DNA of 30,342 bases from a virus: IMG/VR virus record IMGVR_UViG_3300029286_001477, positions 1-30,342 of that record. The stretch is one strand, 5' to 3'. Positions 10,169-20,478 of this stretch are shown in pieces. The notes under the pieces were generated by a model. The model was not told the origin of the DNA and did not search any database. It saw nothing but the letters and a program-made list of their open reading frames with translations. Both the position numbers and the translations under genes were made by a program. Position 1 is the first letter of the stretch, and each line of letters opens with the position of its first letter.

Positions 10169-12490
10169 ATGATAAAAAAGACTCCTTTCCGTAGGACGTC
10201 CCGATTCACTGGGTCTCCCGATCGCCCAGTCCCCTTGTCCTCTTTTCCCCTCCTTGGTGGGGCCAGGGGTGGGTTCTTGATCTCCGTGCTGCTCCTGTTC
10301 CTGGCATTCATTCCGTGCACCGGGTTCGCAGACGCGCAATATATGAAATGGACCTTGATTCCTGTCACAAATTATCCGGGTGTGCCCTATGCCGCCGCAC
10401 TGGCGGAATTACAATCGGCACTTCCCGGTCGTGGTGCGCGATGGGGGGTCCAGGGATCAACCCTTGCCACAAATGTGTCTGGTTATCAAACCCCAACGAC
10501 TTGGGAAATCGGCAGTTCATACACCATTGAATTTACGGCTCAATCAAATTATTACAGGATGCTCTCATCAAATTTTGTGATGACGGCTGCCATTTCCTAT
10601 ACGAACTGGTACATGCCGTATTCAAACACGCTTTCGATTACGGCATCAGGGTTAACGGCGCCTGCCGCCTGGACATTATCCGGACCATCCGAATTCAACA
10701 ACTCCTTGGCCTATCGGGCTGCCGGCACAAACTCCATGGATATTGTTGCCGTGCCGACCGGGACATACTCAGTTACTTTCCTGCCAGTCGTCGGATATCA
10801 CTCACCAGGCACAATCACCAGCGAAATCACCGCAACCAATCCGATAGTCAACACTATTGCCGGCACCTATTCACTTTCGTCCAATTCTTTGACCGTTCGA
10901 TTCCAACCGCCAGCCACCCAGCCTACAGCAAAGTATTGGGTGGATAATGTCGCTTTCCCGACTCTATTGGGGCCGTTTGGGCATAACATTCTGGCATCCT
11001 TGGCCGTATCAAATGATTATACCGTGACTTTCGGCGCGGTGCGCGGATATCAATTTGCGGCCTCGACGACGTTGACCAATTTCGTTGACGCTCGCATCCT
11101 TACCAATACTTTTATTCCGTATTCCAACAGCCTTGCCGTTGCCGTGGTCGGGAACACAAGCGGATCAAACTGCGTCTGGACCCTGGCCGGCCCGGACGAG
11201 TTCACGAATGCCGTCAGCTATGGCACAACGTTTACCAACTCATTCACGGTGTCGGGGATCCCGACCGGGCTTTACACGGTCACCTTCCCGGCAATTATCG
11301 GCTATTCCGCGCCGGCCGCAGCCGCTACCAACATCACCGGGGATAGTCCGCTGATCAATAGCATGACCGGAACCTATGCCAGCGTGATCTGGGGCACAAA
11401 CACCAGCACGAATACGCCGGCAACAAATTTCCCGGCCTCTACCAACGCCATCACGCTCATGGTGGATACCAATGGCCTATTCAAGACGCCCAGCAGGGAA
11501 AAGATCATTGAGGCGAATGGTCTTTTGACTATTGACGGAACAAATCTTGCCACGGGTCCACAGGGTCCAGCAGGTAGTAACGGGGCAGCTGGTGCCCAAG
11601 GTCCGCAGGGCATCCAGGGCCCCCAAGGTCCACCAGGATCAAATGGCATAAACGGCGCCACAGGGCCACAAGGTCCTGCTGGTACGAACGGCACAACTGG
11701 CGCTCAAGGCCCGCAGGGAATTCAGGGCCCGCAAGGTCCGGCCGGGAGTAATGGAATAGATGGCGCAGTTGGCCCACAGGGTCCGCCAGGAACAAACGGG
11801 GCCACAGGAGCCCAGGGGCCTCAAGGAGTGCCGGGGTCAAATGGCGTTGACGGCGCGGTCGGCCCGCAAGGCCCGGCAGGTACGAATGGGGCGGATGGCG
11901 CCACGGGCCCACAGGGACCGGCAGGTTCTAACGGCGTTGATGGCGCAGTCGGGCCACAAGGCCCGGCAGGTCCCGTGACAAATCGGATTGTTACCTACCT
12001 GGGAATCACGTACACCATCACGAACGATCCGACGGCAAGCGGGGACGTGCTCAAATTCGATCCCACCTCCAGCAACGCCTGGTTTGCTGCAGTTGGCGGC
12101 GCTGTCGGCGATCTGTCGTCCACCCAGATTGTCACCCGCATTGTGTCTTTTTCCGGCGTGGATTTTGATTCTCTTGTCGGCACAAATAGCCCGGATGACC
12201 TGTATCAGTTCTCGCTGACGATCGCCACCAACCCCGCCTTCACCGGCACGACTGTTTCCTTCCAGTCTACCAATAATCCCGCCGCCTGGTTCTACTGGAA
12301 CGGCGCACAATTTGAAGATATGGAATACGGAGAATTGCCGCACCTCTATCTTAATAGTTACCAGGCGCGCGTGTTCTATGCCTGGACAAACTCGATCCGG
12401 GGCGACACGTATTATTGCCGGGGCTATATCATCAACTCCGATCTGTTGTCCGTTATAAACATTGTCAATAAAGTACTGGAGCCCAAATGA
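10169..12490 (+). CDS. Exported collagen-like fibre protein, 773 aa
   Basis: The N-terminus carries a signal peptide interrupted by a foreign 32-residue block (residues 5-36): MIKK precedes it and [20 protein letters not shown] follows. After the signal come two similar beta domains (about 145-235 and 315-405) sharing the pattern [48 protein letters not shown] and a final GTY, like PEGA or carboxypeptidase-regulatory folds. Residues about 461-603 are an uninterrupted collagen-type G-X-Y run, then a beta-rich C-terminal domain of about 170 residues. This suits a trimeric adhesive fibre. GAGGAA nine bases upstream supports ATG 10169. Its TGA overlaps the next ATG. Fibres are normal in phages; exported ones are not. 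Confidence 0.75.
10181..10276 (+). repeat. Apparent repeat element inserted in frame in the signal-peptide region
   Basis: This 96-base block is exactly 32 codons. It translates to a Pro/Arg-rich, unhydrophobic stretch ([16 protein letters not shown]... [12 protein letters not shown]) that separates MIKK from a perfect hydrophobic signal core. It contains ACTGGG/CCCAGT inverted arms (10208-10213 and 10225-10230) and CCCC(N8)GGGG-type pairing. The end, coding for [10 protein letters not shown], resembles widespread intergenic palindromic repeats of bacterial chromosomes. Boundaries are inferred from the restored signal peptide. Confidence 0.6.
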
Positions 12491-13530
12491 AAATAATCCT
12501 GATTATTGCAGTTTGCACATTGGCGTGTTTCCGGCTAGAAGCGCAGGATACTCTGACGCAACGCCTGATCAAATATGCGAGACACGATGCGCCGAACACC
12601 GAAATCCTTCCAAACATTTCCAAGTCATTATATCCCGCAACAACGGTTTTCACTTATCATGACTATGAGGTTTTGGAATGGTGGAATGCGATGTTGGAGA
12701 ACGTGGAGGGTGAAACGTCACGCGCGAAACGCAATATGCCCGACATAAGTGACTTGTGTATGATTGGCCAGGTCGTCACCCCGCAAACGGAGGCGGAGCA
12801 GGAAAATCAGGATGCCGAAATAGCTTGGTTCGGGAACCATGGTTTCAACGGTGCGTTACTGGTTTGGAAAGGCGAGCCGCCCGAAAAACTGGCGGCAATC
12901 GCCCGGAAACTCCACGCTCAAGAATGGCGACTTGCCTGGACGTTCGGCCCGGAAGAGTCCAAAGAAGATAATGTCTATGTGAATCCTCTAAAATATGTCG
13001 AAGCTTGCCGATTAATACTCCCGTATTGCTCTTTCGTTATCCCGGCTTTCCGCAAAGCGACAATTACTCATTTTTCGCAAGTGGAAGATGCCGATCGGTA
13101 TCGGAGAATCCTGATTGACCTTATCCGAGAAGCGGCGCCGGATATTCCGATCATGGGCGAAACGACTCTCCGCGCCGCCAATTCCTATTCGTTGCTGTCC
13201 GGCACGCACGCAGAGACGGCCGGAACAATCGTTTTCGAAGCGACGTATGCCGATTATCGGATGGATAAGGTTGTTAAGTATCTGCGAGCGCAACGGATCG
13301 CTGAGCCGTATCTATTTCTCATTACCGGAACAAAGCCATATTACGAACGTCGCACATTGGGATGGGATTGCGATCTGCCGTCGATGTGGCGATACAACAT
13401 GGCAACGTGTGAAGTAATCAACCAGATAAAAAAGGCCGCGTTAGTTCTGGCCGGGGGAGGAGGTGGAACAAGACGATTGTGGGAAAAGGATTTGTCGGAT
13501 GACCTAACCAAAACAACCTGGCGCAAATAA
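12487..13530 (+). CDS. Exported protein, possible TIM-barrel or glycosidase-like, 347 aa
   Basis: The N-terminus [20 protein letters not shown] is a signal peptide. The mature protein alternates strands and helices in a barrel-like way: [11 protein letters not shown], then [68 protein letters not shown] and [12 protein letters not shown]. Acidic residues at strand ends (the GPEES, GETT and FEATY segments) are where a glycosidase would have its catalytic pair, so a surface-polysaccharide enzyme is possible but unproven. Its start overlaps the collagen-like gene (ATGA), suggesting that the two are made and exported together. No named family is recognised. Confidence 0.6.
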
Positions 13531-13555
13531 GCGCCTCAAATCGAGGAGACCGAGA

Positions 13556-14302
13556 ATGAAGATGATGAAAATGTTGGTTCTGATTGTTGTCGCGCTTGTG
13601 GCGACGATCAATCTGGCGGTCAGTGCGGAAGTTGCCGCCAACCCGTCAGTCGCCGCTTATTTCAATGCGGCCGCCTTGGAAAAAGCCAAACAAGAAGCGA
13701 GTGCGAAAGCTAATGCGGAAATAGCTCTCGCCGTGAAGTTGGCGACCGCCAGAGAACAGGCCATAGCAGAATCCAAGTTCAACGAAGCCGAAGCCATCCG
13801 GGCAAAGGCCGCAAAGGAAGCCAGCGACCTGGCGGCAGCCAAAGCCAATGCCAAGGACCAGGCGGACAAAGAAGCCGCGTACTTGGCCAAGCAAAAGGCA
13901 GATGCCGAAGCCGCAGCCAAGGCCAAAGCCGCCGTAATTGCCAAAGCCAAGCAGGAAGCGGAGGCTAAAGCCATCGCCGAGTATGCCGCCAAGAAAGCAC
14001 AAGCAGAGAAGGATGCTGCGCTGGCAAAAGCTCAAGCGGTGGAACTGGCCGCATTGGCGGAAAAGGCAAAGGCGATTAACCAGGTGCTGGAGAAAGCCAA
14101 AGCCGACCTGGCGGCAATCGAAAAAGAAAAGACCACCAAACAGGCGGCGGAAACCGCCAGGCAATCGGCCCAACAAGCGGCGGAACAGGCCGAAATTCAA
14201 AAAGCTGCCGCAGATGCCAAAGAGAAGGCTGAACTGGCCGCAATTATTAAACCCGCCCAGGATGCGGCGGAAGCGAGCCTTAAAGCGGCTCCCGGCAAAT
14301 AA
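13556..14302 (+). CDS. Exported Ala/Lys-rich helical rod protein, 248 aa
   Basis: Residues 1-24 (MKMMKMLVLIVVALVATINL...VSA) form a signal peptide. Nearly all the rest is an uninterrupted Ala, Lys, Glu and Gln-rich helix of about 200 residues, with AKAKA-type and KQEAEAKAIAEYA-type near-repeats, like the rod of TolA. It probably spans a long distance as a single helix or coiled coil in the periplasm or outside the cell. Its low complexity means similarity to TolA-like proteins may come from composition only. A CGAGGAG site precedes the start. It follows the glycosidase-like gene by 25 bases in the exported-protein cluster. Confidence 0.65.
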   Translation: MKMMKMLVLIVVALVATINLAVSAEVAANPSVAAYFNAAALEKAKQEASAKANAEIALAVKLATAREQAIAESKFNEAEAIRAKAAKEASDLAAAKANAKDQADKEAAYLAKQKADAEAAAKAKAAVIAKAKQEAEAKAIAEYAAKKAQAEKDAALAKAQAVELAALAEKAKAINQVLEKAKADLAAIEKEKTTKQAAETARQSAQQAAEQAEIQKAAADAKEKAELAAIIKPAQDAAEASLKAAPGK

Positions 14303-14345
14303 CCGTCTCGAATCGTAAACACCCAAGCCAGGAGGGGAGAGAATC

Positions 14346-14945
14346 ATGCGTAGAAATATTATCACAATCATTATAGGCGCGACATTAATCTCCCTCTCCT
14401 GCGCCTGGTTCTACGGTCCGGGGAATCTCACCGGCAAACGCGTTTATATCACCAGCTGCAACTACTACGACACGTTGTCGCCAACAAACAACTTTGATTA
14501 CGGCGATACCAACGCCGCCATCACGGAACGCGTTGGAGGATTCAGCGCTGCCAATGCGTTTATCGTAGGCTACCCGACCACGTTTGGGGTCATGTTGGAG
14601 TGGGATCTGGCAAAGGTTTATCTTTCAGCCACACTCCAGTATTTCCAAGGCACGAATTCCGGGGCGTCTGCGAACTGGATCACCATCGGAACGATTACAA
14701 ATTCGGTTGAAAAAGCCGAGGGCAAGGAAGGCGCGCATTTTGGGTTGATTACCTGGTATCCGCCGGCAAACACCAACGTGGAGTATCTGGTGCGCATTTA
14801 TGCGGTCGGAACCGCGGATGGTTACGAAACCAATTGGATCTCATCCGATCTGTCCGCCACCAACATAGACTCACATGGCGACGGCAATACCTGGTCTGAC
14901 TGGTCGGTTGTGGGCATAAAAGTAATTCCTGTAAAATGTTTTTAA
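14346..14945 (+). CDS. Exported beta-rich protein, 199 aa
   Basis: The N-terminus MRRNIITIIIGATLISLSCA is a signal peptide. The Cys at residue 19 might be a lipid site, though the preceding SLS is not a standard lipobox. The mature part is rich in Asn, Thr, Gly and aromatics (ISTC-like ITSCNYYDTLSPTNNFDYGD, and NVEYLVRIYAVGTADGYETN), like a jelly-roll or fibronectin-type beta sandwich. It is the fourth exported protein in a row. AGGAGGGGAGA upstream gives a strong start. The function is unknown; a surface-binding module is a reasonable guess. Confidence 0.6.
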   Translation: MRRNIITIIIGATLISLSCAWFYGPGNLTGKRVYITSCNYYDTLSPTNNFDYGDTNAAITERVGGFSAANAFIVGYPTTFGVMLEWDLAKVYLSATLQYFQGTNSGASANWITIGTITNSVEKAEGKEGAHFGLITWYPPANTNVEYLVRIYAVGTADGYETNWISSDLSATNIDSHGDGNTWSDWSVVGIKVIPVKCF

Positions 14946-14972: not shown

Positions 14973-15293
14973 ATGAGCAACCGGGGTAGAATTAAAATTG
15001 AACTGAATATAGCTACGGGCCTGCTTACACTCGCGATCATCTGCATTGGCGCAATATCCTGTTACGCCCAGATCGAACACCTGACTCCCGCAAACGTTGA
15101 AAAGATTGCCACCATGCCGTCAACCAGCCTACTTGCTCTCATAACAATTCTATCGCTGATCCTGACGGCCTACCTAATCCGTTTGTTGTTTTCTAAACTA
15201 CTGACGGCTCTGGACGAGAACACAAAATCGAATACGAACATGGCACGTCTGCTCGCGGAACGTCCGTGCATCAGGAATCCGAAAAACGATTGA
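14973..15293 (+). CDS. Two-TM membrane protein, holin candidate, 106 aa
   Basis: Two hydrophobic segments are clear: residues 14-33 (ATGLLTLAIICIGAISCYAQ) and about 52-72 (SLLALITILSLILTAYLIRLL). A short basic N-terminus and a charged soluble tail (ALDENTKSNTNMARLL) complete it. Two TM segments, about 100 residues and a place just before a peptidase gene match class II holins, which make the inner-membrane lesion at lysis. The first segment could also be a cleaved signal peptide, leaving a one-TM protein such as an inner-membrane spanin, but there is little coiled coil. No homologue is named. Confidence 0.5.
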   Translation: MSNRGRIKIELNIATGLLTLAIICIGAISCYAQIEHLTPANVEKIATMPSTSLLALITILSLILTAYLIRLLFSKLLTALDENTKSNTNMARLLAERPCIRNPKND

Positions 15294-15294
15294 G

Positions 15295-15507
15295 ATGAAG
15301 AACCTCTACCATACACCTTTTTGCCCAACCTGCATCAGCGATGCAATTGCAAATGACGAGGATATTCTATCCGTGTTGTCCGATCCGCATAATCATGCGG
15401 AGAAGCGGAGACACCTGATCGAATTGATCCAACGCCGGCGGAACCTGAAAGAGGAACACGCCCGGATGGGAATGGGTAATTCGCCATTGGAAGTGATGGA
15501 CACATGA
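15295..15507 (+). CDS. Small hypothetical protein with a CxxC, 70 aa
   Basis: The gene starts one base after the previous stop (TGAGATG). The product begins MKNLYHTPFCPTCISDAIAN, with C10 and C13 as a CxxC pair, followed by two helices rich in charge (HNHAEKRRHLIELIQRRRNLKEEHARMG). Its end overlaps the next ORF by four bases (ATGA). It might be a small lysis accessory or regulator because it lies between the holin candidate and the peptidase. No family is recognised. Confidence 0.55.
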   Translation: MKNLYHTPFCPTCISDAIANDEDILSVLSDPHNHAEKRRHLIELIQRRRNLKEEHARMGMGNSPLEVMDT

Positions 15508-16361
15508 ACATGCTACCCGAATTGCGGCCCGGACTGATCCTGAACATGAGCACCAATTCCATGTTTGGGAAATTGATCCGGCTGGTGTTGGCCCGTAACT
15601 GGGATAACCGCCACGAGTGCCCGAACCATGACGCCATCGTTGTCGAACATGCCGGGCAGTTGTGGATTGGAGAGTCTCAACCGCCGGTTGCGCGATTGAC
15701 CCCGATCGCCCAGTACGAAAAGGAGATCAAATCAAAATTCCTTTATCGCCTGCGGGTGTTGGAAGTTGTCGGCGCGACGACAAACGAGGAACGTCTGGCG
15801 GCGAACTGGTGGCTGGACAATGTTCGCAATTCCCCGTATGATTATTTTGGAATATGGCGGCTGCTGATAAAGGCAGTTTTTGGGAACTGGTTTAAGCAAG
15901 CGGCAGGGTGGACATGGGCAAATTGGTGTTCCGAGGGCGTTGCCGAGGCGTGGAAGAAAGGCGCAAAGCGCGATCCTTGGGGCAAGCTGAATCCTACGCC
16001 TCTTACGACGTGGACACGGTATCAACAGGGAAAATTCCGGCTGGTTGGCAACATCGTTTCACAGCAGGAATCCGTGAAACGTATTTTCGCGCGTCTCGCA
16101 TACGCCGCATTCTTCGTTCTAATCGCCCTCTGCATCGTGACCTCCGGTTGCGCCGTCATCAAGGTCGACGTCCACGCCGACGGAAACTGGAACGGACAGG
16201 CCTACACACTGTTCAAAACACTGGAAGTTCCACCGTTTGTTATTGGCGGCACGAACCAGTTTGAGACAATGGGCATCTACAAAAGCGGCACAGATATCGA
16301 GAAGGCCGGAACACTGATCGGAACAGCCGTCAAAGCGGCGGGATATGGAGGATCAAAATGA
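15504..16361 (+). CDS. Permuted papain-like peptidase fused to a lipoprotein-like tail
   Basis: The N-terminal 180 residues resemble circularly permuted NlpC/P60 (YiiX/LRAT-type) peptidases. The His comes first (CPNHDAIVVEH, H42), an acidic residue follows (E49 or E57), then an SPYDYFGIW motif and the nucleophile Cys in WANWCSEGVAEAW (C142). Such enzymes cut peptidoglycan peptides or lipids, so an endolysin role fits the location after a holin candidate. Residues 190-216 then form a basic start, a membrane segment and VTSGC, like a lipoprotein signal, followed by about 70 mature residues. A fusion of this kind is unusual. An internal GTG (16074) may start the tail separately. Confidence 0.65.
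   Translation: MNMLPELRPGLILNMSTNSMFGKLIRLVLARNWDNRHECPNHDAIVVEHAGQLWIGESQPPVARLTPIAQYEKEIKSKFLYRLRVLEVVGATTNEERLAANWWLDNVRNSPYDYFGIWRLLIKAVFGNWFKQAAGWTWANWCSEGVAEAWKKGAKRDPWGKLNPTPLTTWTRYQQGKFRLVGNIVSQQESVKRIFARLAYAAFFVLIALCIVTSGCAVIKVDVHADGNWNGQAYTLFKTLEVPPFVIGGTNQFETMGIYKSGTDIEKAGTLIGTAVKAAGYGGSK
16074..16361 (+). CDS. Possible separately started lipoprotein (outer spanin candidate), 95 aa
   Basis: Within the peptidase ORF, a GTG at 16074 follows AGCAGGA by four bases and opens VKRIFARLAYAAFFVLIALC with VTSGC after it, the layout of a lipoprotein signal (basic start, hydrophobic core, Cys). The lipobox has Thr at position -3, which is not ideal. The mature part would be about 70 residues. 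Small outer-membrane lipoproteins encoded in or near endolysin genes often act as outer spanins. Whether this internal start is used is unproven. Confidence 0.35.
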   Translation: MKRIFARLAYAAFFVLIALCIVTSGCAVIKVDVHADGNWNGQAYTLFKTLEVPPFVIGGTNQFETMGIYKSGTDIEKAGTLIGTAVKAAGYGGSK

Positions 16362-17317
16362 GCAGATTCAGCGATTGGATGGAAGAACTCTTAGCCTGGC
16401 TGAAATCTCAACAGACACCCGACCCGACACCAACGCCCGATCCGGTCCCGCCTGATCCGATCCCGCCCGCGCCAACTACCGGCACAATCGACGCCTGCCT
16501 GTTCTACAAGGCCCAGGCCGGGGACTACGGCCAGAACCGCGGCTACACCAGCACCCTGTCCGTCTGCAGATGGTCATTCAATCACCAGGGCGATGACGCC
16601 AAAGCTGAATCCCAACTCAAGCGCCTGTGCGGCGAGTCCAAGGCGTTCGGCGTCAAGAACGGCCTCAACGTCAAACTCGTTCCCATGATAATCATTTCCA
16701 GCAACGGTAAATGGACGCCCTACAACGCCTATCCCTTTGGCGGTGGCTTGCACAAAGAGCGCGTCTGTTTCTGGCTGGGCATCTGGAGGCAGAAGCATAT
16801 GGAACCTAACGGACTCTATCCGTTCCCGATATTCTCATGCGGCGATAATCTGGATCCCACCAACAACCCCGCTGATGGCAACTGGCAGAAAATGATCAAG
16901 GAGATCGGCGCCTACGTCCAAGGCGCTGAGTGGGGCGCAAAGTTCTCAACCGTCTTCCCGGATGTCTGCATGATCTGGGAAGCCGAAAAACTCGGAGGCG
17001 TCGCCTTGGCCCAGAAGGCCGTCGATGTCGGCCGCGCCGCCTTTCCAAAATCCCGCATTTGGATCCACGCCACCAAACCCGAATTCGCCGGCGTCAGCGC
17101 CGATGTCATCGCCATCCAATCCCCACTTGATCCGTTCAGCGGTGACAAACTCACCGACGATGCGATCCGGTCCCACCACGAGGCATTCCGTAAAGCCCGA
17201 CGGTCGTCTGCCCAAAAACTCATGTGGATGGAATGGACCATGCCCGACGCCACCAAGGCCGCCGCCCAGCGTAAACTCATACGCAACCTTCCAGATTGTT
17301 CTGGCGTGGGGTGCTGA
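16358..17317 (+). CDS. Proline-linker protein with possible barrel domain, 319 aa
   Basis: The first 20 residues are an amphipathic helix (MSRFSDWMEELLAWLKSQQ). A striking Pro/Asp/Thr linker follows (residues 21-40, TPDPTPTPDPVPPDPIPPAP), then a domain of about 275 residues starting TGTIDACLFYKAQAGDYGQN. That domain has strands such as KLVPMIIISSN, FPDVCMIWEAE, KSRIWIHATKPE, ADVIAIQSPLDP and QKLMWMEWTMPD, reminiscent of a TIM barrel of the glycosidase kind. There is no signal peptide. The linker suggests tethering to another protein or to the virion. It starts in the previous stop (ATGA) with GGAGGA upstream. The family is not certain. Confidence 0.6.
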   Translation: MSRFSDWMEELLAWLKSQQTPDPTPTPDPVPPDPIPPAPTTGTIDACLFYKAQAGDYGQNRGYTSTLSVCRWSFNHQGDDAKAESQLKRLCGESKAFGVKNGLNVKLVPMIIISSNGKWTPYNAYPFGGGLHKERVCFWLGIWRQKHMEPNGLYPFPIFSCGDNLDPTNNPADGNWQKMIKEIGAYVQGAEWGAKFSTVFPDVCMIWEAEKLGGVALAQKAVDVGRAAFPKSRIWIHATKPEFAGVSADVIAIQSPLDPFSGDKLTDDAIRSHHEAFRKARRSSAQKLMWMEWTMPDATKAAAQRKLIRNLPDCSGVGC

Positions 17318-17338: not shown

Positions 17339-17782
17339 ATGAAAGCATTCCTGACAGCGGTTATAGTTGCGATGCTGGCCGGACAGGCCGTGGCCTGGGA
17401 TATCATCCGCCTTGCTGTTCCGGATCGCGCCCATGAATCCACCTGGCGCGATGCACTGGCCGATAAACTTCATGGTACAACTGAAGTTTACGTTACCTAT
17501 GGCCGCGTGGACGTGTTGACCGCCACGGAAGCGATCGAACTTGATTTTGCACACAAGTACCATGAATCCCTAGGCCAGGCGCTTCATTACGCCCACGAAA
17601 CCGGCAAGGTGGGGGTGATCGCCCTTATATTCGACGGGCGCGATAAAATGGACTCGACTCAACTGGACTGGATTGAAGCACTTTGCAATGAAAGCCATGT
17701 GAGATTGATTGTGCTGATCCGGAAGAATGTTAAAAGCGCTACAATGCCCGAAAACGGCCTTGCCGTTCCGCCCACTCCGTGA
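17339..17782 (+). CDS. Exported protein with PD-(D/E)XK nuclease-like fold, 147 aa
   Basis: Residues 1-19 (MKAFLTAVIVAMLAGQAVA) are a signal peptide. The mature part follows a pattern I associate with small exported endonuclease-fold proteins of Gram-negatives: HESTWRDALADKLHG, then YVTYGRVDVLTATEAIELDF with D58, E67 and D69, then AHKYHESLGQALHYAHETGK and VGVIALIFDG. The acidic pair after D58 is E-L-D rather than E-x-K, so catalysis is uncertain. Lying next to attP at the edge of the late region, it looks like a cargo (moron) gene with a role outside the cytoplasm, such as degrading foreign DNA. That role is inference. Confidence 0.55.
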   Translation: MKAFLTAVIVAMLAGQAVAWDIIRLAVPDRAHESTWRDALADKLHGTTEVYVTYGRVDVLTATEAIELDFAHKYHESLGQALHYAHETGKVGVIALIFDGRDKMDSTQLDWIEALCNESHVRLIVLIRKNVKSATMPENGLAVPPTP

Positions 17783-20061: not shown

Positions 20062-20478
20062 ATGAAAACCGTGTGGATTGCCATCATCATCCTGACCGTG
20101 GCGGAAATTGCCGGTGGGCAAACGTGCCGGGGAATTGTGGGAGCGGCAACCTATTACACCGCGCAGAGTTGCAGGCAGGAAGGAACAAGCGGCTCCTGGA
20201 CAGCCTCCGGGAAACGATTCGACGAATCGGCGCTTACCTGCGCCTTGCCGAAAGAAATGGCGAAGGCGATGAACATTCAGTTCGGCGACTCGGTCCGTGT
20301 AACGAACTTAGACTCCGGGAAAAAGATCGTCGTGCGCTACACGGACACCGGGCCAGGCAAGAAGGCTCAAAAGCGGGGAGTTGTAATCGACTTATCGATC
20401 CGGGCGATGATTGACCTGGCGGGCGGTTCTGGGGTTCATGCGGGTCGGGTGAAAGTGGAGATCGGAAGAGTAAAATGA
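20062..20478 (+). CDS. Exported RlpA-like double-psi beta-barrel protein, 138 aa
   Basis: Residues 1-20 (MKTVWIAIIILTVAEIAGGQ) are a signal peptide. The mature part matches the RlpA/expansin-like barrel: GIVGAATYYTAQS, then SWTASGKRFDESALTCALP, GDSVRVTNLDSGKKIVVRYT, DTGPGKK and GVVIDLSIRAM. Bacterial RlpA proteins are lytic transglycosylases acting on stripped glycan strands in the cell wall. This small version lacks the SPOR domain. It sits in the early region right after the excisionase-like gene, not in the lysis module, so it may alter the wall during lysogeny or early infection. GGAGGGAGG upstream supports the start. Four cysteines are present (C22, C37, C60 and the context of C22). Confidence 0.75.
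   Translation: MKTVWIAIIILTVAEIAGGQTCRGIVGAATYYTAQSCRQEGTSGSWTASGKRFDESALTCALPKEMAKAMNIQFGDSVRVTNLDSGKKIVVRYTDTGPGKKAQKRGVVIDLSIRAMIDLAGGSGVHAGRVKVEIGRVK

Follow-up and report, generated by a model that had tools for sequence, protein, structure and literature searches.

An in-frame phage gene that looks like a merger of a permuted papain-like enzyme and a small lipoprotein

Introduction

Phage lysis genes are usually placed between the fibre region and the integrase gene, beside a gene for a membrane protein. The eukaryotic LRAT/PLAAT family is not known to have a lipobox or a released tail, and in PLAAT proteins a catalytic domain is followed by a C-terminal membrane anchor. In the related bacterial enzyme YiiX, the pocket holds a fatty acid and lipidated substrates have been proposed (PMC3142127, PMC7387801). 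In S. aureus, lipoprotein N-acylation requires LnsB and LnsA, the latter being matched best by YiiX and PLAAT proteins (PMC7387801), and Tox-Act1 from Salmonella is a phospholipase (PMC12994826). Thus, in the available text of these reports, the characterised members of the permuted group mostly have lipid acyl bonds as their target (PMC3142127, PMC7387801, PMC12994826). Moreover, YiiX-like or papain-like amidases occur among the tail genes of Bacillus phages, according to the available parts of two reports (PMC7685451, PMC9703825).

Two-polypeptide endolysins are described in phages of Gram-positive bacteria, where the short form, in the examples given, is a C-terminal part such as a wall-binding domain (available text of PMC9430671). 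Here, a phage gene is described that encodes a putative permuted papain-like enzyme and a candidate lipoprotein in a single reading frame, and the possible origins and products of this arrangement are weighed.

Layout of the locus

The window, i.e., the whole stretch of DNA that was analysed, covers a virus record 30,342 bases long, in which Pfam identifies genes for terminase, phage capsid protein, collagen-repeat fibre, integrase, and a primase-type protein. The gene under study has the fibre region on one side and the integrase on the other and lies next to a gene for a membrane protein, and by eye a membrane protein gene lies near the enzyme gene at each of the three loci compared (the window, record G002, and locus L093). 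The ORF runs from ATG 15504 to a stop at 16359-16361 and comprises 285 codons with 0 internal stops; the layout given in the first-pass annotation (15504-16361, H42, C142, C216, the GTG, and AGCAGGA) was confirmed in every element. The features are as follows.

14973-15293, plus strand: two-segment membrane protein, holin candidate, two genes upstream of the enzyme ORF (hydrophobic segments by eye; loose lipobox match)
15295-15507, plus strand: small upstream gene, 70 aa, with an ATGA overlap with the enzyme ORF
15504-16361, plus strand: whole ORF, 285 aa, enzyme module and candidate lipoprotein module in the same coding frame throughout
15504-16073, plus strand: residues 1-190, enzyme module taken as permuted papain-like (YiiX/PLAAT-type) from its relatives, their alignment, and profile matches to solved structures
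15627-15629, plus strand: His42, catalytic candidate, invariant in 3/3 sequences and aligned with the His of YiiX and BcPPNE
15672-15674, plus strand: Glu57, candidate third catalytic residue, 15 after the His, invariant in 3/3, with the spacing of His49-Glu64 in BcPPNE
15837-15839, plus strand: Tyr112, candidate conserved tyrosine, invariant in 3/3; a Tyr of the three-sequence profile aligns with the BcPPNE Tyr
15927-15929, plus strand: Cys142 in WCS, nucleophile candidate; WCS invariant in 3/3, aligned in a weak second stretch with YCSE of YiiX
16063-16069, plus strand: AGCAGGA, possible weak Shine-Dalgarno sequence for the internal GTG (-4.3 kcal/mol, not above background)
16074-16076, plus strand: in-frame GTG, codon 191, possible internal start; a TGA of the +1 frame overlaps it at 16075-16077
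16074-16148, plus strand: signal or transmembrane segment VKRIFARLAYAAFFVLIALCIVTSG, basic side inward (core hydropathy 2.86; 17-residue maximum 2.71)
16149-16151, plus strand: codon of C216; VTSG-C216 closes the lipoprotein-type signal, with 69 residues after it
16149-16358, plus strand: candidate mature lipoprotein, Cys216-Lys285, 70 residues, Ala at +2 (sequence and lipobox scan)
16358-17317, plus strand: downstream gene, 319 aa, with a proline-rich linker and an ATGA overlap with the end of the enzyme-lipoprotein ORF

Neither the membrane protein at 14973-15293 (Pfam, PHROGs; no family above cut-off) nor the downstream gene (Pfam, PHROGs, NCBIfam) matched a known family.

The enzyme module

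The whole ORF has no confident family in Pfam, PHROGs, or NCBIfam, and PADLOC returned nothing useful. A search of the whole record of a terminase relative, G002, yielded a homologue at E 2.7e-7, and this protein as query led to a second relative at L093, with 59% to the G002 protein. In local phmmer comparisons, the enzyme part of the window matched L093:1351-1926 with an E of 2e-11 and the G002 gene L006:4905-5492 with an E of 9.1e-6. The three-way alignment keeps H42, E57, Y112, and W141-C142-S143 invariant, among others, and the spacing between His and Glu is 15 in all three sequences, the same as between His49 and Glu64 in BcPPNE (PMC3142127). By eye, no export signal is seen at the N-terminus of the module.

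Peptidase_C92 (PF05708) does not match the window ORF, and the two relatives score 17.9 and 19.4 bits (E 0.0033 and 0.0011), both below the curated Pfam cut-off of 27 bits. When the three-sequence profile was run against 177,635 PDB sequences, only two matches appeared at E<=10, E. coli YiiX (2IF6, E 0.041) and B. cereus BcPPNE (3KW0, E 0.055); in the alignment His, Glu, and Tyr fall onto BcPPNE, and Cys falls onto YiiX only in a weak second stretch. The structure model of the window ORF was unusable (pLDDT 35.9), and the relative L093 gave a poor model (pLDDT 42.3, pTM 0.45) whose best VIA-align rows, all below Z 8, were PLAAT3/AdPLA (4FA0, Z 7.0), YiiX (Z 6.5), and BcPPNE (Z 6.1), the next one standing at 3.6. 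Foldseek searches of PDB and BFVD with the same model found nothing at E<=0.001. The domain is taken as a permuted papain-like enzyme of the YiiX/PLAAT group, on profile and fold comparisons that stay below formal cut-offs, and is not filed under Pfam C92. The permuted papain-like domain proposed in the first-pass annotation is upheld by the order of His, Glu, Tyr, and Cys, which aligns with that of the solved YiiX and BcPPNE.

The label "endolysin-like" given in the same annotation is tentative, since the permuted group acts mostly on lipid acyl bonds in published work, and for the same reason an endolysin is one option for the predicted activity, unproven, and not the default. The ORF matched no endolysin family in Pfam, PHROGs, or NCBIfam, and a possible role in lysis is suggested by the position of the gene.

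The lipoprotein module and the internal start

A lipoprotein signal was defined as a basic n-region, a hydrophobic core, and a lipobox Cys no more than about 35 residues from a start, with a loose PS00013-like lipobox pattern as the filter. Read from GTG 16074, VKRIFARLAYAAFFVLIALCIVTSG-C fits this loose pattern, with a basic n-region, a hydrophobic core (2.86), small residues, and the Cys. On both strands of the window, the scan finds two such sites (14973 and 16074), whereas 40 dinucleotide shuffles gave 0.05 on average, so that the signal exceeds chance and the lipoprotein-type signal claimed earlier for this ORF holds under the loose pattern. The strict form [LVI][ASTVI][GAS]C has 0 sites in the window, and it fails at C216 because position -3 is Thr. 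The basic residues before the hydrophobic segment favour an orientation that keeps the enzyme inside and puts the tail outside. In E. coli, a residue other than Asp at +2 directs a lipoprotein to the outer membrane; the tail, with Ala at +2, would by this rule go there.

The proposal of an outer-spanin-like tail found no support, given 2 prolines in the 70 residues of the mature part and no recognised i-spanin partner; the membrane protein at 14973-15293 has no long periplasmic coil by eye and no spanin family match. A classical lambda-type o-spanin, which is marked by a proline-rich mature part, was rejected for the few prolines (2/70).

GTG 16074 is the only start codon located 14-35 codons before C216 in the lipobox scan. 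Its Shine-Dalgarno pairing, at -4.3 kcal/mol, is equalled or bettered by 25% of 176 in-frame internal start codons, and in a simplified initiation score made for this analysis 68 of 270 internal starts match it and 23 of 29 gene starts surpass it. The start of the enzyme at 15504 is also weak in this score, yet better than that at 16074 (10.74 vs 12.83). The internal start is thus ordinary and of background strength, and a strong internal ribosome site was rejected; the GTG and the AGCAGGA named in the first-pass annotation are both present.

The joint between the two modules

In both relatives found, a separate gene encodes the enzyme, in line with the suggestion in the first-pass annotation that the two parts may be separate genes in relatives. 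The G002 protein has 195 aa and ends in DLIVGDSRGE, and the L093 protein has 191 aa and ends in DNIVQNR; the window reads GNIVSQQES at this place and continues with V191 (GTG 16074) as KRIF, so that the ends of the relatives fall within a few codons of the GTG. Therefore, the enzyme domain ends where the lipoprotein signal begins. Because both relatives are stand-alone and end so close to this codon, two genes seem to have merged in frame to give the ORF. The frame is continuous and codon usage is typical on both sides of the joint: the tail has a log-odds per codon of +0.172 in the frame of the enzyme vs -0.392 and -0.272 in the other forward frames. The joint has no long homopolymer.

In G002, a separate gene for a 95-aa lipoprotein, MKKITLTIATAALAAVTGC (L006:4565-4852), precedes the enzyme gene by 52 bases, and no lipoprotein gene was found near the enzyme of L093 with the lipobox-type scan applied to G002; thus, the merger would unite two module types that lie side by side in one of the two relatives. 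The tail of the window has no sequence likeness to the G002 lipoprotein. G002 also holds, near its enzyme gene, an ORF of 180 aa (L006:3791-4333) with a motif that by eye resembles a second papain-like peptidase and with no Pfam match.

A TGA of the +1 frame (16075-16077) overlaps the GTG as GTGA, as in the ATGA overlaps at 12487, 15504, and 16358. This fits a pair of genes that overlapped while still separate, but it counts for little as evidence, because any GTG start followed by a codon beginning with A yields GTGA. A resemblance between the +1-frame end and the ends of the relatives was dropped as evidence, as the stretch is too short to count.

The merger is known from one assembled copy, and no second sequence carries it. 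The window ORF had no relative in viral contigs (searched whole and with its first 190 residues), in genome contigs, or, by tblastn to E 1, in phage records, and none in the MAG of the host kin or in nine virus records; two plasmid matches (E 1 and 5) were read as chance. Neither the ORF nor the three-sequence profile found a relative in 387 genomes of the phylum of G004, a search run without a positive control, so that its empty outcome carries no weight. The tail alone had none in viral contigs and none at E<=1 among 22,482 ORFs of 93 loci, and its seven phage matches in a search to E 10 (E 2 to 8) were read as chance.

Host and related phages

The terminase of the window is 85-86% identical to copies on four contigs (L007-L010) of one Kiritimatiellae MAG and 63-64% identical to that of G002; therefore, the host is probably from the Kiritimatiellae, a little-studied bacterial group. 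Two of these contigs, L008 and L009, share the gene order of the window through the fibre and carry other genes after it, where the lysis region would be, so that these kin prophages are uninformative on the joint. No description of lysis genes of Kiritimatiellae phages was found in a search for papers on Kiritimatiellota prophages, which returned none.

By eye, the collagen-repeat fibre (10169-12490; Pfam Collagen, E 2.7e-21) seems to have at its N-terminus a hydrophobic segment resembling an export signal, and so do the corresponding proteins of two Kiritimatiellae prophages (L089:534-2315 and L090:564-3200), which is unusual for a virion protein. Signal-peptide-like starts are also seen by eye in the genes at 12487, 13556, 14346, and 17339 (regions 12487-14945 and 17339-17782), around the cassette, and the phage may therefore export many proteins. 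At 20062-20478 lies an RlpA-like protein with a double-psi beta-barrel (Pfam DPBB_1, E 2.3e-8) and a signal-like start, possibly a wall-acting protein.

Proposed mechanism and alternative explanations

The reading preferred here, with a probability of roughly 0.48, is a natural in-frame merger of adjacent phage genes for a cytosolic YiiX/PLAAT-type enzyme and a small lipoprotein, in which the tail would be released as a lipoprotein and both parts would take part in envelope break-up. The precursor would be inserted by its hydrophobic segment, with the enzyme in the cytosol and the tail outside, and C216 would be lipidated. Two mature products are favoured, formed via the lipoprotein signal peptidase and/or the GTG. 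In one route, the signal peptidase would cut before C216, the cut signal would keep the enzyme anchored in the inner membrane, and the internal start would not be needed; in the other, initiation at GTG 16074 would yield the lipoprotein, and both routes could operate. The released tail would probably reach the outer membrane, and enzyme and tail may both help to break up the envelope as infection ends, with the enzyme attacking acyl bonds (of lipids or lipoproteins) or peptide bonds. A more elaborate version, which seems improbable, treats the ORF as a small polyprotein from which the signal peptidase would produce an inner-membrane-tethered acyl-bond enzyme and an outer-membrane lipoprotein as its partner or substrate, both attacking the outer membrane jointly without classical spanins.

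The product could instead be a plain membrane-anchored fusion from which a separate lipoprotein is never made, as the uninterrupted frame, the background strength of the internal start, and the Thr at -3, which weakens the lipobox, would allow. Nevertheless, the segment has a full n-region, core, small residues, and Cys with a start codon at the right distance, and the enzymes of the relatives lack an anchor; this reading is judged unlikely. Nor is it very probable that these are two ordinary genes whose stop was lost very recently, or only in the assembly, through a base exchange or a shift of the frame by one base in the final codons of the enzyme gene. The relatives do stop at the joint, the GTGA resembles the ATGA overlaps of neighbouring genes, and the copy is single; however, that overlap arises with any GTG before a codon starting in A, the frame and codon usage run through the joint, and no long homopolymer is present there.

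A function other than lysis, in which the enzyme acts on envelope lipids or lipoproteins during infection or lysogeny (e.g., in superinfection exclusion or as a virion part), would suit the acyl-bond activity of permuted members such as LnsA (PMC7387801) and Tox-Act1 (PMC12994826) and the Bacillus phage tail genes with such amidases (PMC7685451, PMC9703825). It appears a distant prospect, however, as lysis genes usually lie where this gene does, with the fibre region and the integrase on either side and a membrane protein gene next to it.

Comparison with known systems

No phage fusion of a permuted papain-like enzyme with a lipoprotein was found in literature searches on endolysin internal starts, spanin/endolysin fusions, NlpC with lysis cassettes, and endolysins with a lipobox or gene fusion, which is not proof of absence, and nothing fitting was found on internal signal peptides and polyproteins or on permuted NlpC/P60 together with phages or acyltransferases. 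The window ORF has His, Glu, Tyr, and Cys in the same order and at the same spacing as the YaeF/YiiX-like enzymes (PF05708; 2IF6, 3KW0), but it falls below the Pfam cut-off and carries a lipoprotein module in the same ORF. The LRAT/PLAAT acyltransferases and phospholipases (H-rev107, AdPLA) provide the best fold match of the relative L093, and the PLAAT layout of catalytic domain and C-terminal anchor recurs in the window ORF, which differs from them in its phage setting, its lipobox, and its putative released tail.

As in the two-polypeptide endolysins, there is one gene with a candidate in-frame internal start and a common stop; in contrast to the cases in the available text of that report (PMC9430671), the short form would be a lipoprotein and the ribosome-binding site is weak. 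Similarly to the outer spanins of the lambda Rz1 and T4 types, a small phage lipoprotein would stand beside a candidate lysis enzyme, but, compared with those in the available part of PMC6139136, it lies in frame inside the enzyme gene, is not proline-rich, and has no recognised i-spanin partner.

The gene thus appears to be a new combination of known parts, in a single sequence. If real, it would let one ORF supply both an enzyme and an outer-membrane lipoprotein, make it worth asking if the permuted papain enzymes of phages attack lipids rather than the wall, and extend the design of two products from one gene beyond phages of Gram-positive bacteria.
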